Below are positions 7,536 through 46,788 of a stretch of DNA of 64,000 nt, piece by piece (within the stretch, counting starts at the first letter, position 1; each line of letters begins with the position of its first letter). This DNA is from Dacryopinax spathularia. Taxonomy: Eukaryota > Basidiomycota > Dacrymycetes > Dacrymycetales > Dacrymycetaceae. The DNA is taken from assembly GCA_037974965.1 (NCBI GenBank), contig JBBPFI010000004.1, forward strand, positions 434,001 through 498,000, given 5' to 3'. Made by a program: the position numbers and the translations under genes. The notes below the pieces were generated by a model. The model was not told the origin of the DNA. It worked only from the letters and a program-made list of their open reading frames with translations, and did not search any database.

Positions 7536-7819
7536 TGTCTTGTTTGTTCTCAATTTGCGCAGGTCGTGTCCCTTTGTAGCCCGTATCATACATATATCCA
7601 ATTTGCATGCTGTTTGATTCCTCTTAGTGATTGTTGCTCCCATGTATGGTCAGAAGAGGGTCACTTTCCTCGTTCACATCAGTGCGCGATTGAAAGCACG
7701 CTCCCCATTATCGCATCAAATTCCTATCCTAAAATGGAAAGCATATCGCCACAATCTCACGAAGAAACAACCTCGGTACTTTTCGTCGACCGTAGAAGGG
7801 TATGAGGCCAAAAAAGCAA
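7536..7819. other. Intergenic, SEC2-like 3' side and 5S terminator
   Basis: No supported protein gene. The stretch ends with the T-rich tail of the minus-strand 5S gene: read on that strand, the bases just after the 5S body contain a run of six T (7810-7815), a normal RNA polymerase III stop. Confidence 0.6.
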
Positions 7820-7937
7820 AACCACAGCACCCAGGATTCCCGCGTGGTCCCCCACCGTGGTACTAACCGGGCGGCACACTGGTTAACTGCGCAGATCGGA
7901 CGGGATGCGGTGCTTTCAGTGTCCTATGGCCGTGGAT
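7820..7937 (-). rRNA. 5S ribosomal RNA (copy 1)
   Basis: A 118-nt fungal 5S rRNA gene on the minus strand, starting atccacggccataggac at 7937 and ending gggtgctgtggtt at 7820. The internal control region (cgcagttaaccag ... gttagtaccacggtggggga) is intact, as expected for a gene read by polymerase III with TFIIIA. It is followed by a T-run terminator. By eye it is identical over its length to the second copy 22 kb away on the opposite strand. It stands alone between two protein genes rather than in an rDNA repeat. Confidence 0.95.
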
Positions 7938-8311: not shown

Positions 8312-8588
8312 ATGTCGTCCTTGACAACTGCCAACACACCTAAGCCGGAGACGTCGCCCAAGCTGGTCAACCCGCTCAACCCGGAGGGGCTCAAGCCGTG
8401 CGTCCTACCTTGCTTACTTGCGTCTCGCAGATACTGAGAACCAAATCAGATGCTGCGCATGCCCCGAGACGAAGGCGGCACGGGATGCATGCTTCTTGAA
8501 CAACGACTCTAACGTTGCGACGGAGGTGTGCAAGAACCTCGTTCAGGCGCATATTGCTTGCATGCGGGGATATGGATTCAACATCTGA
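8312..8588 (+). CDS. COX17: Cox17, mitochondrial copper chaperone
   Basis: Small intermembrane-space copper carrier that hands copper to Sco1 and Cox11 for cytochrome c oxidase assembly. Two exons (8312-8397 and 8450-8588) code for 74 residues; the 52-nt intron splits the codon for the Pro before the first Cys pair. The protein carries KPCCACPETKAARDACF, with the copper-binding CC and the first CX9C-type spacing, followed by a second CX9C pair (VCKNLVQAHIACM) and the family ending GYGF. Size and cysteine pattern match the family fully. The N-terminal ~25 residues are an unstructured Ser/Thr/Pro leader. It converges on the kinase gene to its right. Confidence 0.95.
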
Positions 8589-8740: not shown

Positions 8741-9833
8741 TCATGACCCTTGTCCAGCGACAGAACCGCCAGCAATCTGCTCTACCTCCGCCCGTCTACC
8801 TTTCAAGAGTTGTAACAATGTCCGCAGCCCAAATATTACACCTTCGTCCGGTCCCTGACCTGGTGCAGGTCTCGTATGCGCGAAGTCGATCAGCCGGACG
8901 AGCCACGGTGCCCTGCCCGTCCCCTCAGGCTCGCTCTCCTCGTCCATATCCTCGTCCTCATCGTCTCCCTCCCCATCTTGTGGACCATCGGCGGCAGACT
9001 GCGCCTCCTCCATCCTCTTCAGCGCCTCCCTCAGCGCCTGCTCTTGCCCCTCATAGACGATCAGAACGCTTCCCCCAATCATACGGATCTCAGTCTTTTG
9101 CAGCACTTCAATCAGTTCTTCTATGTCTTCTTCGATCCCTCGAAGGACTTCTACTAGCAGGTCTGGTGGAAGACCAGAAGAGGTGGGAGATGTTGAGCAG
9201 GGGAAGAAAGTGCTGATTCCTGAAGGTAGCTGGTCGACCGTGAGCGCACGACCATACTTTTTCGGGTACACGCTGTATTCGCCTGTAGTACGGTCATATA
9301 CCTGGACAGAGTAAGTGCCATGAACGATCCCTTCAAAGGACGCAATGACATACATGAAAGCCGGTCAATCGTATGCCAGTTTCCCCGCTCGTTGTCTCCC
9401 TCGCTCGCTGCTCCATCCTCGTTCGCTTCTCCGGCGTAGCAGACTCATCATATAGCACCTTCCCCAGCTTCACATCCAACACATTCGCCTTAACAAAGTA
9501 CTGGCACAGGTTCTCCAATACCAAGCTCTCCGACCCCGTCGGTCCCACAGAAGGGGCAGGAACAAACGTCCCATTAGATCCGGCCATCCCCTCGAGCCGG
9601 AGTGTACCGTACAGCTGCGGAACCCATTCCCGTAGTTGAGCCAATGCTGGGTTCGAGTTTAGCGCCTCGTAGAATTCTCGCTCGGTCGGGAGGATCTTCT
9701 TGATTACGAAGGACCCGTCGGCGGTGAGCTCGAGTGTGCCAGGGTGGCCGCCCACTTGAAGCGGCACGGAGGATGGCCCAGCGGCGGGAGCATCAGATGA
9801 GTTTGTTGGTGGAGATACGAATTTGATGTTCAT
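8741..9833 (-). CDS. Inositol polyphosphate multikinase (IPMK/Arg82 family)
   Basis: Kinase that phosphorylates inositol tris- and tetrakisphosphates in the phosphate signalling pathway, usually nuclear. Exons are 9833-9354 and 9301-8741, joined across a 52-nt intron to read TGFHVYDRTTGEYSVYP; about 346 residues. The inositol-binding motif region is ANVLDVKLGK, where the family PxxxDxKxG has Ala in place of the leading Pro. Later come the ATP-site strand SVLIVYEG and the metal-binding LIDFAHTR. An acidic insert (DEDEDMDEESEPE) lies before the IDF motif, as in yeast Arg82. An upstream in-frame Met at 9950 would add 39 residues not typical of the family, so 9833 is preferred. The kinase is the IPMK branch rather than IP6K by its short length; a search would settle this. 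Confidence 0.85.
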
Positions 9834-10537
9834 AGCAGCCGTTATAGGCGCAAAGAAGTATTTCGAAGCGATCGTGTAAGCAAGAACGTGTGGAGCGGCG
9901 TAAAGCGTGATTGAGCGTAGCGTGCAGAATGGCGAGCAGCATGCCTTCACAAAAATGGCACGCCGTCGTCGTCAGGGTTGAGTCCTGGGCGCTTCTTTTT
10001 TCCTTGAACAATGACGTCCATCACCGAGACAACATACTCTGTGGCATACTCATACATGCAAAGCGCTTTGCCCGCTCTTATGCACGAGAAACGGCATGTG
10101 TTACATGTGAGGACGCAAGCTTGGAATAATGGCGCTTCGAGTTGAAACGCAGTTACACAGTCTGCTTCCTTCCTGCTCGGCGCTGATCTCAAGAAATTTC
10201 TGCTCTGGCGTCGTGTCCGCATGCCGCAAGACCGGATCTCTTCTACCTCTCTACTTATCGCACGCTCCATGTGATCGACACTTCATAATATGCTTCTCCC
10301 GTGATGGTCTGGTCTGGCTGCTACTGCGGGCGGCGCGCTCGCGTGACGCAGGCTTACTAGTGACGATCAGGCTGTCTCACGGGCGGCTACAAAGAACGCC
10401 CTCCAAATGCACTTCGACTCTGGTGGCTACAGGCTCATCCTAGCTGGGCATCGCAGTGTATAAATGCCCTCGAATTCTTGCGTATTCCTACCCATCACCA
10501 CATCCACTCATCTCTTCCTGTCCCCTTCCCGGGACGC
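9834..10537. other. Intergenic region upstream of the kinase and of the hairpin array
   Basis: No protein gene is supported. It should hold the kinase promoter (minus strand) and, at its right end, the TATA-containing promoter of the array. Small open frames here lack any recognisable motif. Confidence 0.5.
10459..10464 (+). promoter_or_regulatory. TATA box ahead of the hairpin array
   Basis: A perfect TATAAA lies ~75-80 nt upstream of the first repeat unit, followed by a pyrimidine-rich, CCATC/CACATCCACTC-type stretch resembling a fungal RNA polymerase II start region. It supports, but does not prove, transcription rightward through the array. Confidence 0.4.
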
Positions 10538-11132
10538 GGAGGACGGCTCAGCATTCCCACCATTCGCACTGCAGTCTGACCATGTTCCGGACGACACGTC
10601 TTTCTCAACGCTACTTCGGCATGGTCTCAGGGTGTAGGGTCAATGTGTGATTGCTGGGTTTGTCCTTCCGGTCTCTTTCTCGCTCTCCTGCCAATTGGCT
10701 TCTCATTGCCCCGCTGTTGGACTCTTCCCTCGCTCTGGACGTTGTTTATCTTGCCCTATTGGACGGAGCCGCATTCCCACCATTCGCACTGCAGTCTGAC
10801 CATGTTTCCAGTCGAGGTTTCTTTCGACCGCCTGACTCGACATGGTCTCAGGGTGTAGGGTCAATGTGTGATTGTGGCTCTCGTCCTTGCTGAGGTATCC
10901 TATCGTGCCGACCTACGCTCGAACTGCTGCTCCTGGACGCTCTATGCTGGTACTTCTTGCTTACTCGGTCTAAGGCTTGTCTATAGGCTTACAAGGCACT
11001 CAGTGGAGGATGGTCCAGCATTCCCACCATTCGCACTGCAGTCTGACCATGGTTTCAGCGGCGCCTGAAAAGGCGTCCTGCTGGCATGGTCTCAGGGTGT
11101 AGGGTCAATGTGTGATTGCGAAATTCGTCCTC
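10538..11132 (+). repeat. Three tandem hairpin units with conserved arms and variable cores (candidate structured ncRNA)
   Basis: Three units (10538-10668, 10761-10886, 11006-11132) start 223 and 245 bp apart. Each has an identical 33-bp left arm (starting CATTCCCACCATTCGCACTG; at 10552, 10772, 11019) and an identical 34-bp right arm (starting CATGGTCTCAGGGTGTAGGG; at 10620, 10841, 11085). Between them lies a 33-36 nt core that differs in all three. The arms can pair: CATTCCCACC with GGTgtaGGGtcAATG, and GACCATG with CATGGTC. Outside the arms, GGAGGAC/GTCCTTC (unit 1), GGACG/CGTCC (unit 2) and GAGGATG/CGTCCTC (unit 3) can close the base although the bases differ. The unit 3 core adds CAGCGGCGCC/GGCGTC..GCTG. 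The spacers are diverged and encode no known protein. The family is unknown; a polymerase II transcript carrying several hairpins is the simplest reading. Confidence 0.7.
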
Positions 11133-14100
11133 GTTCTTCCTGGTTGGCTTTCTTTGGCTCGCTTCTCGTACCCTTCTGGTCTATGTTCCTCCTGTTACTC
11201 TGGTCTCGTCTGTTGTTGGAGGAGTTGGCACTACAACCTGTTTGTCGCGGTTTCTTTGTTTTCCGGCCCTTCATCAACGCGACTAACGCGCCTAGTCTTC
11301 AGGAAGCCCGTACGGCCGAGCTTCTTGAGCTTTGCACTGCTTTTCACAACAGAGTCGACGGTGATGTCTTTCCATGCCAACAACGGTTTCCCGTCGGAAA
11401 CGCACCAGGAAGGATGCCTGTTTTGCGGAGCTAGGCAGTCTCGGTATGTTCTCACTCTTCACGTCCTTCTTTGGTAGCAAGCTGACAACGCTTGACCAGT
11501 GCTTTCACTTTTCCACCGTCAAGTATGTCGCAATTACGGCCACTTTCCACAACCGCTCGTACTACAAGGAACGATCGGACAGCCAGTGACAATAATCCTC
11601 ATACTCAGGCCACCACACATGTTGGAATTTCTATATCCGGAAACCGTCCTCCGACTCAAGGCATCATCGTACCTCAAGCCAACACAATCCGGGATCCCGA
11701 GCCCGAGACCAATCTTCTCGCCCGCTCCCTGAAGCTACAACATACCCCGTTTCATCCTCTCAGCTTTCCGACAGATTGGGGTACAGGGCAGAAACTTCGA
11801 TACATCCTGGCTACCAAACGAGCGCAATAATCGCCTTCAGCCACAGCTCATGCCGGCATCTCTTCATGAACGACTCATACCTCACCAACCACCGGTCCCG
11901 GAAAAACGTAAACTGTCGACCACGTTGCAACCTCCCCCGGCACAGGGTCTCAGGGTTTCGGTCAAACCCAATCAATATCTCCAGCAAGTCCGAACCGAAG
12001 CGTTCGAAGCTTCTTTGGCACAAGGCGTGCCTGCTCAGGGTCGGAAAGAATGCGGAACGGGGAAGTTTACTGGACGAGATAAGAATGAACGGAGATGGCC
12101 GGGTTTTGCGGGGTTTTGCGGGGTATGCGGGGTTGAGGCTCTTCCTGCATCGGGATCGATGGGCTTGCAGGCTTCCGCTGCAGCAGAAGCTGGGTGGGAA
12201 GCTGCTCCTCTTCCTTGGAGGCAGATGCGCCTAGGCTGCTTTCCGAGCTTGTCACTGCTTTGACAGCCGGCCGATCGAAATTCCGTTCGACAGCCGGCAG
12301 CCGACAGATGTCAACTCCTCCCGCTTCGCTTCATTCCTTCCATCCTCCCACACGCACCCAGAGAACCCCTAGGGGCCCAGTGCAGTAGTAAAGTTGTTCC
12401 GTAAGCGAGACCCCTCCCCCAGTTCTCCCATTATCGCGATGCATGCATGATCTGACAGATGCTCTAGAAACATCGGACATTCCCATTCTCACCATACGAC
12501 GGACGACGCCATCAACCCTCCCGGTAGAACTCCATGGTGGACGGCCGGCGTCCGCAGTCGCCGAACGCCTCGCCATGTGGATGCAAGTCACGCATGTCTG
12601 CCAATTCCAGCTCGACGTCAAACGAGAGTGGAGCTGCTGCTGAAGAGGCTGCATGGTCCGATTGACATTTGCGCTGAAAACGCCGGCATTGGCTATCCTT
12701 TGGCAGGAGCCTCATTGTAGGCTCGTGTTTCGTCTCGGCTCCGCGTCTGCCCCTGGAGTCGTTATCGGATCTGCCAGAAACGGTGAGCGACCGCAACGGT
12801 ATAAGCCGAGCGCACGGGCAGTACGCCATTCCACCGAGGATCGCTCAGCTTGTCAAGGGCTGACATCGCAGCATGACCCCGATTACGTGACGTTAAACCT
12901 CCGTCATTTTCACAGACGACCCAGCAATACATTGTCTTCCTCCCGACAATGCACTGCATTGCGCTCAATTCAATTCAATCTTTGCGATATCAATCATGAC
13001 AGAGCAGTCGGATCAGTCATGCAGTGGCTTATCTCTGAGGTGTACGGTATTCCAGATCTGACCAAGCGAACGGGTCTTAGGGGTCTGCAATACAAATTGA
13101 GACAGTGGGATACAATGCTATTGTCGAGAGTGGGAACTCGCCGAGAGGAACGGCAGGAGGAAGTTGGTGCGCTGCCAGGGTCTGGAGGAGACGCTGATTC
13201 AGACAATAATGGCTTTGGACCGCGCGGAACGGGCTGTTTTCTTGCTTGCAAGGATTCACGCTCTGCAGAGTAACTTAGAGGATGACCGCGGGGTATAGTG
13301 GGCTGCTGCAAGTGTCCTGCACTGGGTATTGGTAGGTCGTTTCGGCCGATTGAGAGAGCTTCGAGATTCAGAAAAACGTCGGATTTGGCGCAGCAGAGAT
13401 TGTCAGCCGTCCTGACAGCCTCTACGCTCGCTCACTCCGGGTGGTTATCGAGATCCCGCATGCCGATCGGCCACGTCCGAAAGAAGGTTCGTACGTACTT
13501 TCTTGTGGCGGAAGCAAGCCCCAGACCTGCAGACCTGCAGACCTCGCAGACTCAAGCAAGAACCAGGACCCAGGAGCAAGACCAATCAGATTAGGCCACC
13601 AAGCAGCCAGATGCAAGCCCGATCGGGCAGCTCGTCATCTCTTCCCGAACCCCGTCCAATCGCCCGCCCGCCGCTGTGAGAAGTCGAACAGGCAAAACAA
13701 TTTCGTGATCTTGTAAGTCGAAGCCAGAGATTTCGCAATCGGAAGCCGGGAAGCCCGGCTCCTTGCTGGCCAATCAAACCACTCGCTTAACCCCGGGTTA
13801 GGAGGTGAAGTGAAATTTAATTTTACCCCGCCTAGGATTGGGCGCTAGAACCGACCCAACAATTATGGGGATGGGAGGGGTCGGGTTTGGAAACCGGCAG
13901 GACCTGGGTGGTAAGACACTCAAAGCCCCAAACTAATCAGCCTGGGTGCGGGTGCGGTTGTGGGTGATGTGGGTGGCCAGACCGCTCGCTGAGTGTGGGG
14001 CTGGTTGGTTGGTTTAGCCTCTTGTTGGGTGAGACTCCAATCTTCTTGGTCTTGGGCTGGTAGAACTCTGGTTGTTCTGATCGTAGAGTTAGTAGCTGTT

Positions 14101-16366
14101 CTGGCGGTTGGCATGATTCGTTTTGAGTGCAACATGAGAGACTTGCGGTCGGGTGTCTGGTCATTTGGGTCACAGGACGCGGGGAAAGAAGCGACTCTTG
14201 GCGCCGGCCGTCGGAAGGCGTTCCTACAGGCAGGCAGTGGCAAAACAGCTCAGGACCGAAGGTTTTCTCATCTGCCCCAGACGGTGTCAGCGGGGCTTGA
14301 GGGTTAGGGGGCTGTGTAACGGGACCCCAGACCCCGGTCTCACTTCTGACATCATTCCATCTTCTCACGCACGTGTTCTGGTGCGCGGGGGGCCCAGAAC
14401 GACGGAGGCGCTTCGATTCGCTTGATAATTGGGCGGTCGGGGCGAAATCGACGATCTGCGCGGAATCGACCGGCCTCGAATGGGTTCGCGCATCGTCTGG
14501 TTGGCTCTCATCATCGTCTCATCCAGCGTCGTCGTTGGGCAATGCAATGCGCTGGCTACTGCAGTTGGGGAGATGTTGTACGGTTCTGCAATCAGCTCGA
14601 AGGAGGTGGGCTGAAGCCAGTCAGGAACCAGCGCATCACGGGGTCGAGACGGTCATGACGCGTAGGGGGGATCATAGCTGATGGATATGACGCGCGTTTT
14701 ACATCGGGCTGCTCAACCCGCGGAGGAAGGAACCGCGGCTCCGGACTCGACACGGGCGCAGAGCGGTCAGACCTGGCCCGTCCTGCTGCTTGGTGCCGAG
14801 CAATACATTGTTTGGGGAAGAAAAAATAGACTTCTGGACCGTTGTCTCACCGCCGCCCAGATGAGCGCTATCTGTGTCCATTATTATTTGGTGGAGGGAA
14901 GTTCGGCCGGTCGAATGCTGGCCCGGGGGTGCGGGTCGTACTCAGCTGGTGTTACGCGAACTTTTGCTTGAAGAGCGGAGGATTACAGCCGCTGTCAGAG
15001 GAGCGGGAACAAGATGAGGGAGATGGGGCAGCCAGCCCCGGGGGTTGTTGTGCCATCGCGCCCGCATCGCATCGCTCACACATCAGGATTTGGTGAAAAA
15101 TGATCCCGTTTGGGGAGGGGGTGTGGCTGGGACAGGCAGGCTCTTCCGATAAGCGCGTTGGGTGCGTGAAGGGGGTGGGTTGGGTTGCAAGTTTGATAGA
15201 TGTGGACTGATTGGGAGCGGACCTGGCGTTTGGTGGGGACAAGGTGGGAAATGTAAAACGGGGATTGGGCGGCAACCGAGTGCTCGGAATTAAGAAAGGA
15301 AGAGGAGGAAGTCGAAAGAAGGGAGAAGGGAGAAGGGAGACCGGCAGAAGACGTGGGATTGTGACCGATAGATTTCATACATTCCCTCTCTCCGACCAAT
15401 AATCGGCCAAAGCAACGTGAGACCGCCCTCGCTCAGCTCTCTCACACATAGCCCCCTCCCATCCTCCCCATCCCTCCCATCCTCTCCCTCCCTCCCTCTT
15501 ACCTTGCATCGCCCTCTCTCTTTTTTCTCATCCTTCCCTCCTCCTGCCTGCTGTAGCCTTAACTCTCCTCACTTTCTGCACTCTTTAACCTCGGCGCCTG
15601 GTCGCTTTAACCTCTGGCGCACCCTCAACCCCTTCCCATTCGATTGCTCCCGATCTGAGCAGCACTGTACGATCGAATCCCATCCATCCGCACAAATCGA
15701 CTCGCCCCCTCCTTCCACCGCGCAATACTGCAATCTCCCATCGCACCCGCCGTCCGTTGTGCTCGCTCACACCCGCTGCTGAGGAAGGACGACCATCATC
15801 AAACCTGACATTGCGCATCCTGCTCACCGCCGGGCACACCTCCCAGGCCGAGTGACCGCTCGTCATCCAAGGTGCGTACTCTCCCCCTCACCTTACTGGC
15901 CGTTGTATGCGCGCTTGTTTCTTTCTACCTCCCCCCTTTTTCATATTCTTCCCCACCCGATCTGTGCCTCCCCGCACTCGTGTTGTTCTGTTGTCATATC
16001 GCCTGCCCTCATCGGCGATGGCACGTTCGCCCACGCGGCATCTCTAGCGTGTTCTACCGTTTGGTTTTGGTGTGTACGGCGGGCGAGCTACCCAAGCCGT
16101 GGGTGCGTTGCGTGAGAGGGGCTGGCCCACCGTCGCTCTCCCCGCGTTACTCTTAAACAAAACTGCCATAACACTCCCCGCGCCGCTTGCGTCTTTTGCT
16201 CTTCCTCCGCTATGAACTCGTCCCTCTCTTTGCCGTAACAACCGCCTGCCTTTCCAGGCCATCTCTTCACTAACTCGCAGTACATCGACCTGCCAAACTA
16301 CTCCACACTCACATACACAACAACTGCCGCTCGTTATCTCCCCACATTCGTTCACCTCATCGTTCC
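11133..16366. other. Gene-poor stretch upstream of the PP1 subunit gene
   Basis: No coding region can be supported over ~5.2 kb. Open frames on both strands (the longest at 12653-13273 plus) show no family motif, no splice-consistent extension and mixed low-complexity composition. Visible items: a fragment like the right arm of the array at about 11944-11970; a short G-rich tandem (GCGGGGTTTT) at 12099-12136; a minor pair of ACCTGCAG repeats near 13530; an A/T-rich patch near 13815; and a strong pyrimidine tract at 15445-15560. The last ~900 bp probably hold the promoter and a 5' leader, possibly with an intron, for the gene starting at 16367. Confidence 0.5.
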
Positions 16367-19300
16367 ATGCCACTTCTTACCTCCCTTCCGGGCCTCTTCC
16401 CCTTCTCCTTTCGTTTCTTCCTTCCTGGGCTATACCCCGCTCCTTCAAAGAGCGAAAAGCCCTCTTCCACCCTCTCATCCTTCGCACCCGTTTCAAAAAT
16501 CTCCTCCTTTGCAGCACACGCGCTCACAAATCATGTCTCTCAGCATCACCTCGCCCAAGCCGCGGCAACTGGTCTGCTAAAGGAGAAGGCAGAGACACCG
16601 CCGCCAACGCCGACGCTCACCGTCCCCGTTCGTGCGCATCTCCGCCACACCCGTTCCGCCGACACCGTCTTCCACGGGACAGCGCCTGCGCAACCCGCCT
16701 CAGCGAACGCAGGTCCGGGTCGACAGCCCCTCCGCGCGATCACAAACACCAACAGCATGCCCTATGCGCTCCCCTCGCCCTCGCCCACCGTCGTGCTGAG
16801 TGTGCCGCAACCAACGAACGACATCCATTTGGGACAGTCGTTCGTCTTCCCGCTCCGCAACAGCCCGCCGAGACCGCTTCACCCGTCCGCGATGGCCAGT
16901 GAGAATGCAAGTAAGAAGGAGAGGCCGAGCGCGATCGTCTTGACAGAGAATAAGGAGAATAGTGGGCCGAGTAGAGCAACGGGGCCGATGCCCCTGATAC
17001 CCAGAACGGGATCTGCACAGCGGTTACGGCATAACCAAGGACAGCAACGCTCGTCTAGCGCGAGCAACGTACCTACAACAAATGCGCCTTCGCAGCCAGA
17101 GGCCTCGACTTCAGCAGCCGCGGCGGGCGACTCGTCTGGTTCATCGACAGCGACTCCTGCCAGCCGGAGAAGTACTCCGCCTGCACGGCATACACGCAAG
17201 CCTCCGATGGGAATCAACGTCTCCCGCGAGTTGACCGCTTCACCCCAGCAGCCATCGCCGCCGCCTTCCTCGCCCGTCAGCTCTAGAGCACCCGTGAACC
17301 TGCGGTTAGACCTGCATACACTGAAGCGGACATTATCAGAAGCGCAAGTTGTCGCCAGTCAACGGCATCATCATCAGCCTGCATCGATTCACCACCAGGT
17401 GCACCCGGCAAAGGCAACACACCAGCTTACCCCTTCCGGTTCGCTCGATATCCCAGCGCCGTCCAATACGCCATTCACGCCGCCAGCCCTCTCTCGCTCG
17501 GAGATAATGGTGCGGAAGAAGTCGGGTGAACTGGTCCGACCAGCAATCCGGACACCTGGTAGTCAGCCGCGGAAGATCACAAAGTCAGAGCCTACAACAC
17601 CGACGGGCCCCAAGTTCGTGCACTTCGACGCGCAGCTTGAGCATGTCAAGCTTTTCCTGGCTGAGCAGAAGCCCGCAGCGGTGTCGCGGGATGGGAGTCC
17701 GACTGAGACGAGCGAGGGCGAGCTGTCGAGCACGAATGAGTACCCGTTCCCGCTGGCGTATGCCTCGTCGGACGATGAGAAGATCCGCCGGGCGCTGCAG
17801 ATTAAGGTGCTGAACATGCCGCCTTTGCTCTTGCAGGACGTGGAGGGAGATGTGAGGCTCGAGACTGTTGCCCTGAGCGAAGACGCCCGCTCGCTGAACG
17901 GCACGGTTGTCGTGCGAAACCTTGCCTTCCAGAAATGGGTAGTCGTGCGGTTCACCCTCGACGACTGGCAAACCCGGAGCGAAGTCTCAGCGCGGTATCA
18001 GGAGAGCCTGCCCGGGAACGGCTTTGATCGGTTCGCATTCGCTATCCGGCTCGTCGATGTTCTGCCTAGGATTGAGGCGAAGACCATGCAGCTCGCTGTC
18101 CGATTCAGCATCGAAGGCCGGGAGATGTGGGACAACAACCGGGGTGCGAACTATAAGGTCGAGTTCAGCAAGCGGAAGCTGCTTACTCCTGCCGCTGCCG
18201 CCACCGCCGCGCAGGGTCACAAAGCCACGAAGAGCCTGCCTGCGAATGCGCCTAGCACCTCGACAGCGTCGACCTCCCAGCCAGAGAAGAGGACAGAATG
18301 GCCCGTCAAGAGCGCTGTCAGTGACCAGATGGCCGACCTGAGGCGCGAGCTGGAGAAGGTCGTCGCGGAGGAGATGAGCCCGCCTACGGTCGTGAAGCGG
18401 AGCGTGACGGTCACTTACCAGCCTGACAAGTCGTCGCCCAAGTCTGCCCCCGCCGCACTGCGGAAGGAAGGGTTCCCGGACTCTCCTCTGGGCAAGAGAT
18501 ACAGTTTTGGCGAGGCGCTGAATAATGATTGGTCTGGTCGGCCGTCGCCTTCTGGCCTGCAGCAGTCGACGATCCCCTTCCCTAGTGGCAGCCTGAGCGG
18601 ATACTCCAGCTCGGGCGCTATGAAGAGTCGCAAGACATCGCGTGAGACGTCGGCAGCCTCAAGCCCCGGTACAGTCCCCTTCCCGAGCATGTCAGCGCGC
18701 AACTCGCCACCACGGGTCACCTCGCCGCCAACGCATATACCCAACTTCTCGTCGCCTGTATCGGGTGACTTGCCTCGCTTGGCTCCTCGCGGCTCGCCAA
18801 GGGATGCACCGTACGGCGCCTTCGACGGGTCTGCTACGCCTCCCGAGCTTCGGCCGGACGGGATGCCCAACAAGGGCGGCAGACATCATCAGCGGTCGTA
18901 TTTCGACACCTGGCCCGGCTTTGGTACGACTTCCGTGCGGAAGACTCCGCCTGGTACGCCTGGCACACCGGGGAGGTTCAACTCGTACCCGCCGCTCTCG
19001 CCGCCTCTGGAAAATGTCCCCCGGCCTGCAGAGACGATCGTGCCTGCCGCACCCGTCGTACCATGGGCGAACCTCGTCCCGCTCCCGCCGAGCCCGCATG
19101 ACGACAGCACCGCTTCCTCCACACCGTCGATCGTCACCGAAGGTGATGGATCAAGCATGTCCCAGTCGCCGTCCTCCCCTCCCCCCGCAGGGTCCATCCT
19201 CCCCTCAATGATCATGTCAGAGTCGGACGACATCCCCAACTCTTATAACTACTTCTTGGATCGGTAAGGGTCCTTCCCCCACCCTATCGTCAGGTGACCG

Positions 19301-29785: not shown

Positions 29786-29903
29786 ATCCACGGCCATAGG
29801 ACACTGAAAGCACCGCATCCCGTCCGATCTGCGCAGTTAACCAGTGTGCCGCCCGGTTAGTACCACGGTGGGGGACCACGCGGGAATCCTGGGTGCTGTG
29901 GTT
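29786..29903 (+). rRNA. 5S ribosomal RNA (copy 2)
   Basis: A second complete 118-nt 5S gene, from atccacggccataggac to gggtgctgtggtt, directly followed by a T-rich stretch (ttttgccttttg) that can stop polymerase III. Body sequence matches copy 1 base for base by eye, while flanking sequence does not, so the copy is dispersed and kept uniform rather than part of a recent large duplication. Confidence 0.95.
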
Positions 29904-30152
29904 TTGCCTTTTGTCCCTTCCCCACTCAACGTCAGTGAGTGGGAGAAGCGAAGCTCGTGGGAGTGGCAGATCGTGGCGATGGAGTTGCCTTATCAGATCT
30001 GGAGTTTGATGGGCCGTTAGGTACGTAAGCAACACAGCGCAGCATTCAGCGAAGATCGATACACTTCATTTCGCTATTATACTATACAGACAGAAGGATC
30101 TCTATAGCTGACAGATCATGACACGAAATACACGAGAACCACGACGTTCGAA

Positions 30153-45147: not shown

Positions 45148-46788
45148 CTAGGCGAGCAGCGAGCCGATGACGACGGCTGCGACGGCGAGGAACCCGCCAG
45201 AGTAGGCAATGCGATGGGACGCACCGCTCGTCGTCATGGAGCCGTAGGCTCCGCTCGATGCACCAGCACTCGCAGAGGGCATAGCGGCGCTGCTGGAGCT
45301 GTCGCTGGAGGTGCCATTTGCGGCGTTGGCACTCGCCATCAAGACGGGCAGGTCCTGCGGGATGACGAGCGAGCCAGATGGGGAGTAAGCGCCCATGCCA
45401 GATTCGAGGCTTCCGTTGTTCGCTGCGTAGAACAGACGCGTGAACAGCGCGTTCTCGATGAAGCTCTGCATCTGCTCGGGCGGGACGTTGGAAGTGTCGA
45501 ACGAGTTGCCCCACGTGTACGCGCTCGTACCCATCGTCATGTTGTTCACCATCGAGACCATCGCTGCCATCGTCGGGCTTGCGGCGGCCTGGGCGAGGAT
45601 CTGAGACTCGAGGTTCGTGTCGATCGAGAAAGTCGAAGCGGGGTTGACGATACCGAACATGCCCTTCTCGCAGTGGCCGGGAACACCGCAGTAGTAGAAG
45701 ACTGGGTTGGTGTCGTTGATCACCTGGTTGAACACGAAGCTGGCGTTCTGCTGGCCGGAGGCGAAGGGGTTGTCGAGCGTCTTGTTGCACGGAGTGGCCT
45801 CGGACGACTTGGTCACTGTGTGCGGGCCGGCGCGCCACTGCCAGGAGATGGTGTCACCGACAGAGGCGTTGATGGCGAAGGGGATGTAGCGCAGGACGCC
45901 CTTGGTAGGCGCGACGATGACCGTGTGCGTGGTAGGGGTGCCATTGGAATTCCAGCTGTTGCCGCTGCTAGAGCTGCTGGAGCCCGAGCCGTATGAGGGA
46001 GGCTGAGTAGTCGAGGGAGGCGGCAGCATGTTCCATTGAGCCTGGCACTGAGAGACGCAGTTGTTGTAGTCGGTGCCCCAGTTGGAAGAGCCAGAGCCAT
46101 AAGAGCTGCTGGAAGAGCTGTAGCCGGAAGAGCCGGAGCCGGACGTGCTCCATGAAGTTGCAGTGGGGGCAGCCTCGACAGTCGTGCTGGTAGCTTCCCA
46201 GGTCGTTTGGGAGGTCGTCTGCCAGGAGTTGTCAGCAGAAGAAGTGGTCGTTTGCCAGGAGTTGTCGGCGGAGGACGTGATCCAGCTGTCCGAGCTTGTC
46301 TGCCACGAGTTGTCGGCAGTCGAGGTGGACGTCCAGGTGTCAACGGAGCTGCTCGAGTCCCAGTTGCCGTTCTGCTGGTTGCTGCCGTAGCCTGAACCAG
46401 AGCCAGAGCCCCAGCTGTTGGAGCCTTGGCCGTACTGTGAGCCGCTTTGGCTGCCTTGGCTCCAGTTGTTGGAGCCGTAGCCGCTCCCAGAGCTGCCGGA
46501 GCCGGAGCTATAGCCGGAGCCACTGCTGGGGTTCCAGTTCTGGTTGTTGTTGTAGTTCGAATTCGAGCCGTAGCCGCTTCCTTGACCGTAGTTGCCGTTG
46601 GAGTTCCAGGAAGAACCGGCGACTACGGGAGTGGGGCTAGCAGCAGTGGACTCGATCACACCGTTAGGCGCAGAGAAGGCAGGCTCATTCGTCGAAGAGT
46701 CACGCTTGTGCCTGTGCGAAGGTGCGGCCGATGTGACGGCGGAGAGGACGGCGATGGCAGTAAGGAGAGGGGTGGTGAGGATGACCAT
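45148..46788 (-). CDS. Secreted, probably GPI-anchored cupredoxin-domain protein
   Basis: Single-exon gene of 546 residues. A signal peptide (LLTAIAVLSAVTSAAP) is followed by a Ser/Gly/Tyr/Asn/Gln-rich region (~50-170), then imperfect repeats of a DNSWQTTSS-type motif and a Ser/Gly-rich linker. The cupredoxin domain is at ~305-420, with type-1 copper ligands visible as His in GPHTVTKS and the Cys-His-Met set in YYCGVPGHCEKGMFG. A helical part follows (AAASPTMAAMVSMVNN). A Ser/Ala-rich C-terminus ends in a hydrophobic tail (GGFLAVAAVVIGSLL), typical of GPI addition. Members of this fungal group sit in the cell wall and are thought to bind copper; the exact role is not known. The start at 46788 gives a textbook signal sequence. 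Confidence 0.87.
   Translation of the reverse strand: MVILTTPLLTAIAVLSAVTSAAPSHRHKRDSSTNEPAFSAPNGVIESTAASPTPVVAGSSWNSNGNYGQGSGYGSNSNYNNNQNWNPSSGSGYSSGSGSSGSGYGSNNWSQGSQSGSQYGQGSNSWGSGSGSGYGSNQQNGNWDSSSSVDTWTSTSTADNSWQTSSDSWITSSADNSWQTTTSSADNSWQTTSQTTWEATSTTVEAAPTATSWSTSGSGSSGYSSSSSSYGSGSSNWGTDYNNCVSQCQAQWNMLPPPSTTQPPSYGSGSSSSSSGNSWNSNGTPTTHTVIVAPTKGVLRYIPFAINASVGDTISWQWRAGPHTVTKSSEATPCNKTLDNPFASGQQNASFVFNQVINDTNPVFYYCGVPGHCEKGMFGIVNPASTFSIDTNLESQILAQAAASPTMAAMVSMVNNMTMGTSAYTWGNSFDTSNVPPEQMQSFIENALFTRLFYAANNGSLESGMGAYSPSGSLVIPQDLPVLMASANAANGTSSDSSSSAAMPSASAGASSGAYGSMTTSGASHRIAYSGGFLAVAAVVIGSLLA

Follow-up and report, generated by a model that had tools for sequence, protein, structure and literature searches.

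Closest described systems

Tandem MIRNA genes of plants have long stems, and the identity between them covers about 21 nt. MIR159, MIR169 and MIR395 are plant examples in which tandem genes repeat a mature sequence (excerpt of PMC3481472). In fungi, many of the reported microRNA-like (milRNA) loci are poorly supported and under half of those reported met basic standards on re-analysis; well-supported loci usually have an inter-duplex length of <20 nt, and neither 'tandem' nor 'cluster' is used anywhere in the main text of the study concerned (PMC9757828). Nor does an arrangement like the one described below appear in the excerpts of two studies that screened fungi comparatively for structured RNAs (PMC5640933, PMC8216456), the second of which covers Ascomycota only. 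Among the titles and abstract openings retrieved in the literature search, none concerned the present locus and none was found on Dacryopinax, small RNA and Dicer.

The window analysed here is the whole 64,000-nt stretch at positions 434001–498000 of contig C4, in a genome of 29.2 Mb and 24 contigs, and it contains a trio of hairpins with identical arms. The host is taken to be a dacrymycete or close to one: the frame at 45148–46788 matches a protein of Dacryopinax primogenitus, a member of the Dacrymycetes, and the other named matches noted among the 120 listed of 530 are basidiomycetes. Like the plant MIR395, MIR169 and MIR159 genes, the trio consists of tandem hairpin copies with a common candidate mature sequence; unlike them, it lies in a fungus, and its identity extends over 34 nt in each of the two arms, compared with about 21 nt in the plant genes. 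Its hairpins share with fungal milRNA loci a position outside recognised genes, the lack of an Rfam match and a host with Argonaute-type and RNase III domains, but the well-supported fungal examples are short hairpins with usually <20 nt between the strands, against 48–51 nt here (excerpt of PMC9757828). The single-hairpin H-box RNAs of Ascomycota are likewise stand-alone intergenic hairpins with a conserved interior; the trio differs from them in having no H box or ACA and in belonging to a different phylum (excerpt of PMC8216456). An earlier note on this DNA knew of no described family with such a layout. This stands in so far as no Rfam family matches the hairpins, but the layout by itself is known from the plant MIR159, MIR169 and MIR395 genes (PMC3481472).

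H/ACA snoRNAs (neither an H box, ANANNA, nor ACA follows any of the three hairpins within ~40 nt), C/D snoRNAs (no RTGATGA on the + strand in 10481–11300, where six CTGA are present) and hammerhead ribozymes (no CTGANGA core on the same strand and interval) were rejected as identities of the units.

With three copies, invariant arms and compensating stems, the trio carries internal evidence of selection. As a test of whether fungi have real microRNA genes it would be unusually clean, and it comes with one named partner to test, RAS.

Three tandem units with invariant arms

The units occupy 10538..10669, 10758..10890 and 11005..11134 on the + strand, as delimited by folds of 10538–10668, 10758–10889 and 11005–11133 and by an alignment of the three over 133 columns. 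Each is built of a basal clamp, two identical arms and a variable tip. The 5' arm, GCATTCCCACCATTCGCACTGCAGTCTGACCATG, is exact over its 34 nt in all three units (10551..10584, 10771..10804 and 11018..11051, + strand), and so is the 34-nt 3' arm, CATGGTCTCAGGGTGTAGGGTCAATGTGTGATTG (10620..10653, 10841..10874 and 11085..11118, + strand), within which a 22-mer discussed below, common to a RAS intron, lies at 10628–10649, 10849–10870 and 11093–11114. The tips enclosed by the arms, also on the + strand, measure 35 nt (10585..10619), 36 nt (10805..10840) and 33 nt (11052..11084). The tandem trio with identical arms and variable tips that the earlier note had described is thus real; the arm lengths are 34 + 34 nt and not 33 + 34 as it gave them.

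All 68 arm columns of the alignment are invariant (34/34 in each arm), in comparison to 19 of the 65 columns outside the arms (7/36 in the tip, 6/13 in the 5' base and 6/16 in the 3' base). The basal clamp, GGAyGG ... GTCCT, is conserved. Compared in pairs, the tips align no better than shuffled sequences (as-good fractions 0.07, 0.90 and 0.22; 500 shuffles). Whole spacers, with the outer stem flanks left in, align better than shuffled sequences (0.0, 0.032 and 0.024; 500 shuffles). When the outer stem flanks are removed, the alignment of the remaining spacer cores beyond shuffles is weak (48, 13 and 252 of 1000 shuffles as good). Because the spacers align beyond shuffles and their cores weakly so, the units have a common origin, with spacers that are far diverged but perhaps short of saturation.

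Folding, compensatory changes and strand

On the + strand each unit folds into one long irregular hairpin of ~130 nt, so that the arms pair with each other as had been proposed. From the base, the clamp (GGAyGG/GTCCT) is followed by a variable lower stem, opened in unit 3 by an internal loop (4 and 5 bases), by an invariant mid-stem broken by interruptions every few pairs, and by the variable tip. The fold is more stable than shuffled sequence in every unit, a comparison on which the earlier note had staked its proposal (z = −3.79, −6.94 and −5.03 for units 1, 2 and 3; 0/200 shuffles as stable in each case). The corresponding values on the − strand are −1.61, −3.98 and −2.51 (12, 0 and 2 of 200 shuffles as stable). 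Units trimmed to 106–109 nt, with most of the basal stem gone, have z-scores of −1.83, −2.21 and −4.13 (11, 5 and 0 of 200).

In the three-row alignment, 93.5% of the 138 cells are paired, a value equalled by 1 of 500 shuffles. Six of the 46 pairs are altered on both sides (reached by 3/500 shuffles) and there are 14 further pair types (0/500). Sliding the partner by 1–3 columns brings pairing down to 32–50%. This control is biased towards the structure, which comes from the very rows being tested, and the pairing test rests on three sequences. The main helix is uninformative on compensation where its pairs never vary (31 of 42). The variable base and tip mostly keep pairing despite the sequence change, and the compensatory changes support the view that the structure has been under selection, as opposed to a recent plain duplication.

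Exchanging flanks between units, as a test of co-adaptation, gave partial support only. With the outer stems treated as duplexes and the 5' flank fixed, unit 2 clearly prefers its own 3' flank (−18.1), unit 1 prefers its own by a margin of 0.2 (−12.6 versus −12.4 and −11.4), and in unit 3 a foreign flank does slightly better than its own (−10.5 for the own flank versus −10.7); once a closing loop is added, the own flank is best for unit 2 alone. For exchanged tip halves, the own half is best in units 2 and 3 and worst in unit 1 (−6.6 versus −7.1 and −12.0). The pair count in the alignment is the stronger support for co-adaptation.

The overall strand preference is for +. The consensus (alifold) energy is −49.0 on the + strand versus −33.1 on the − strand (z = −7.3 versus −4.7; 300 column shuffles), and G-U pairs fill 22 of 138 cells versus 10 of 135 across the three units. 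Among variable pairs alone, there are 10 G-U and 3 A-C in 45 cells on the + strand and 7 and 6 in 51 cells on the − strand. Since there are more G-U pairs and a better whole fold on +, these results point to a + strand RNA, the test being graded and not absolute. Taken alone, two of the tips fold better on the − strand (−9.4 versus −4.2 on + for tip 1; −10.3 versus −8.3 for tip 2). When an 820-nt stretch was folded as a whole, units 1 and 2 paired arm-to-arm internally, with 26 expected pairs each, the arms of unit 3 paired less fully (11 expected pairs), and none paired across units.

Searches for kin in the genome and in databases

A DNA search of the 29.2-Mb genome with unit 1 as query matched the three units only, and no fourth unit was found there by this search combined with arm patterns whose best candidates were scored. 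A MITE or other inverted-repeat transposon was rejected, as the genome search found no dispersed copies. A 26-mer of the 5' arm, with up to 3 mismatches allowed, found nothing in the genome beyond the three units. A 25-mer of the 3' arm found the three units and one further place, C7:1493962–1493986 on the − strand (reversed control, 0), where an uninterrupted block of 22 bases is identical and the 3 mismatches all fall outside it. A genome-wide search with the arms for further copies had been proposed from the outset; what it yielded, then, was not another unit but 22 nt of the 3' arm, in an intron of RAS. An 18-mer of the 3' arm with two mismatches gave, besides the units and RAS, 2 matches versus 1 for its reversed control, which is chance level. 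Other short arm patterns gave 5 matches versus 5 in the control, one 19-mer (2 mismatches) versus 0 and, for one pattern, none.

No Rfam family matched the hairpins at gathering score, which answers another check that had been suggested. Over 10300–11700 there were three weak matches far below cut-off, one of which overlaps a hairpin (8.9 bits versus a cut-off of 90). None of the seven open frames of at least 60 aa that overlap the hairpins matched Pfam at E 0.01; together with the overall + strand preference, this upholds the view that an RNA fits better than a coding repeat. No match was obtained by blastn of 10500–11300 against phages, and exact pieces of the arms were absent from viral_contigs and from prokaryote genome_contigs, in neither of which fungal chromosomes are expected.

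A 22-nt match in an intron of RAS

The new fact to emerge is an exact match, in sense, to 22 nt of the 3' arm, located within a 137-nt intron of a RAS gene on C7; gene and match share one strand. Of the three frames scanned in this gene, two match Pfam Ras (E = 1.9e-24 and 6.2e-7) and the frame of the short first exon has no match; the exon ends joined around the intron match residues 15–65 of the GTPase KRas chain 6pq3_A (E = 3e-26). The intron (L007:1474–1610) begins with GTGCGT, ends with GCAG and splits the codon after ...DPTIE, a position that we take to be in the switch-I region. The match to the 25-mer (L007:1501–1525, equivalent to C7:1493962–1493986) is located so that the 22-mer sits towards the 3' end of the intron, and both flanks are unrelated to the hairpin units.

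The intron folds no better than shuffled sequence (z = 0.11, 110/200 shuffles as good; z = −0.25 for the inner 105 nt) and therefore is not a fourth hairpin. The longest piece of the 5' arm in common with L011 is 10 nt, that is, the intron lacks the partner arm. A mirtron was considered, given that the intron holds the 22-mer and looks hairpin-like at −53.6 kcal/mol, but it was rejected on the same z of 0.11; the apparent hairpin arises because the intron is pyrimidine-rich and then purine-rich.

Comparison of the arms with both strands of the genome amounts to 4.0e9 comparisons, for which a 22-nt match is expected about 2e-4 times at random. As a control, the window without the units was compared with 24 other loci of the same genome, picked non-randomly (1.07e10 comparisons); shared 14-, 16-, 18-, 20- and 22-mers numbered 103, 7, 1, 0 and 0, versus random expectations of ~40, 2.5 and 0.16 for the first three. 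Because shared words in the control exceed random expectation, ~0.001 is a fair guess at the chance of the match after correction for the excess. A larger control, in which 29 sources totalling 187,463 letters were compared all against all with overlapping loci counted (~3.5e10 comparisons), contained one unlinked 19-nt match, between L024 and L047, one unlinked 18-nt match and none of at least 20 nt. With zero events of that length, low-rate copying of filler could still account for as much as a few tenths of an expected match to the arms, and comparisons of this kind can only bound the rate of filler DNA.

The link to RAS is the most testable addition to the trio, and it may be an accident. 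That the match arose by chance, or as filler DNA from break repair, has perhaps one chance in a few of being right; it concerns the link alone and was weighed separately from the readings of the locus itself. The match is single, was found after looking and has unrelated flanks on both sides, shared words in the control exceed random expectation, and one 19-nt match joins the unlinked control loci L024 and L047. Against this, the expectation is 2e-4 at random and about 0.001 after the excess, and no unlinked match of at least 20 nt was seen in ~3.5e10 control comparisons, as compared with the 4.0e9 made for the arms.

A microRNA-like reading

Four mutually exclusive readings of the locus were weighed. 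We tentatively put first, at somewhat under even chances, that the trio is a transcript with three hairpins that would be diced to one 22–23-nt microRNA-like RNA; a microRNA-like precursor, as the earlier note had suggested, is thus one of two leading readings, and the domains of Argonaute and RNase III type in the genome fit it. The locus would be an intergenic RNA gene, probably transcribed by Pol II from about 10.49 kb. A TATA box-like TATAAA at 10459..10464 (+ strand), upstream of a pyrimidine-rich stretch, is the only TATAWA on the + strand in 10301–11300 and may be the promoter of the triple-hairpin transcript. One transcript would carry the three long imperfect hairpins in series, and a Dicer-type RNase III would cut every hairpin to the same ~22–23-nt small RNA, its most likely source being the stretch around CAGGGUGUAGGGUCAAUGUGUG in the 3' arm. 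If the preceding U is included, this would be a 23-mer starting with U, of which the RAS-matching 22 nt form positions 2–23. Three copies would give a triple dose of one sequence, and the variable basal stems and tips would matter as structure only.

As for the machinery, a profile search of the genome found nine pieces of Piwi (PF02171) on contigs C16, C5, C2 and C1, seven of them above cut-off; these are unmodelled gene fragments, some of which read through stops. RNase III (PF00636) gave seven pieces on contigs C4, C15 and C7, of which six form three close pairs like those of Dicer; 8 of 14 control genomes, all of them bacterial, had matches to the family too, and it is not by itself proof of Dicer. 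The Piwi pieces and the paired RNase III pieces suggest a working RNAi set, and dicing in this host is therefore possible.

In several respects the units look as microRNA precursors should. A stable single-strand hairpin precursor is found in all three units (0/200 shuffles each), the Piwi pieces place an Argonaute-type protein in the host, and the Rfam, Pfam and copy searches gave no sign that the units coincide with a structural RNA, a coding sequence or a transposon. The 22 nt common to the arm and the RAS intron are a small-RNA length. The putative duplex, whose partner strand lies at 10556–10577 in unit 1, has 5 unpaired of 22 bases on each strand, where the mismatch limit of a microRNA duplex is about 5. 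Its strands are 50, 51 and 48 nt apart in units 1, 2 and 3, beyond the short distance that is typical, though not defining, of fungal loci (usually <20 nt; excerpt of PMC9757828).

Taken together, what favours the microRNA-like reading is the invariance of the arms (68/68 columns versus 19/65 elsewhere) while the variable parts keep pairing, the alifold and G-U preference for the + strand, Piwi and paired RNase III domains in the genome, the length of exactly 22 nt in common with the RAS intron, the lack of an Rfam or Pfam match at the hairpins, and the arm-to-arm pairing of units 1 and 2 within the 820-nt fold. Several observations speak against it. The invariance spans 34 nt on both arms, mismatches included, and so extends beyond a 22-nt product; each putative strand has 5 unpaired bases, with 48–51 nt between the two; tips 1 and 2 alone fold better on the − strand, and the arms of unit 3 pair less in the long transcript; other 18-mer matches to the 3' arm are at chance level (2 versus 1); RNase III domains alone do not show Dicer; and the RAS match is in the sense of RAS. 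As hairpin strand and RAS copy agree in sense, a small RNA could pair fully only with an RNA antisense to RAS, as yet hypothetical.

Were such an antisense RNA made, the intron, as the one near-perfect counterpart among the places found, would be the target; alternatively, it may be the place of origin or the destination of the arm sequence. The fuller proposal, a MIRNA-like fungal gene of plant-like design whose 22–23-nt RNA controls RAS expression or splicing, is distinctly doubtful; control would be exerted either directly at the RAS locus or through an antisense RNA made there. A small RNA from the 5' arm acting on the intron was also considered (pairing with the 22-mer at −19.4 kcal/mol) and is not favoured because this pairing, like that with its own 3' arm, is interrupted throughout.

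Alternative readings

The other leading reading, which we regard as possible though on the unlikely side, is a multi-hairpin structural RNA in which a protein would read the irregular 34 + 34-nt helix by shape and sequence. Tips and bases would merely hold the helix, and three sites would give avidity, the RNA being a scaffold or sponge. Identity that covers both arms, including mismatched and bulged positions, beyond the need of a 22-nt product is what such recognition would leave, and a stem interrupted every few pairs and a conserved basal clamp are consistent with it. However, no known family was matched in Rfam, and the RAS intron has 22 nt of one arm with neither the partner arm nor a significant fold. 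A structural RNA thus accounts better than a microRNA-like precursor for the 34 + 34 invariant columns and worse for the single-armed match in RAS.

It is improbable that the units are old tandem duplicates of no strong function whose arms were kept alike by gene conversion or recent exchange. The tandem layout would suit this, as would the alignment of whole spacers beyond shuffles and, weakly, of two of the three pairs of spacer cores (48 and 13 of 1000). Conversion, however, would need to end exactly where each arm ends, at either side, and to pass over the tip in every unit, and the variable parts change in compensatory fashion.

Usual protein-binding sites are shorter than 22 exact bases. 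Least probable of all is a DNA element, with repeated binding sites or cruciform palindromes and a half-site in the RAS intron: the identity is visible as DNA, a protein might bind a shared 22-bp block within an intron, the − strand likewise beats its shuffles (alifold z = −4.7; units −1.61, −3.98 and −2.51) and tips 1 and 2 fold better on it, but the G-U counts (22/138 versus 10/135) and energies (−49.0 versus −33.1) favour RNA on one strand, and 22 exact bases exceed the usual length of a protein site.

Genomic surroundings

To the left of the units and divergent from them lies an inositol polyphosphate kinase gene in two open frames (8741..9950, − strand, approximate ends; PF03770, E = 1.4e-15 and 2.2e-21). 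The next recognised gene downstream, with the frames between partly scanned, encodes a CBM21 domain (16367..19267, + strand; PF03370, E = 1.7e-29). Among the open frames scanned, the ~5 kb of 11300–16200 contain no recognised protein gene. Three frames in 11374–12231 have no Pfam match at E 0.01, and frames 12644–13270, 13940–14518 and 11850–12260 have none above cut-off, the second of these with one sub-cut-off match (18.9 versus 27 bits). The hairpin locus could also hold a small coding gene that escaped recognition, or a transcript that is spliced.

Elsewhere in the window, the two Rfam matches at gathering score are both 5S rRNA genes, at 7819–7937 (−) and 29786–29904 (+), 22 kb apart and scoring 105.3 bits each. 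A short cysteine-rich frame at 8313–8588 (+), with a stop in straight translation that perhaps comes from an intron, resembles, by eye, a copper chaperone of the COX17 type. The serine/glycine-rich protein encoded at 45148–46788 (−) has weak, below-cut-off plastocyanin-like matches in Pfam and is 70% identical to a Dacryopinax primogenitus protein over 71% of its length.
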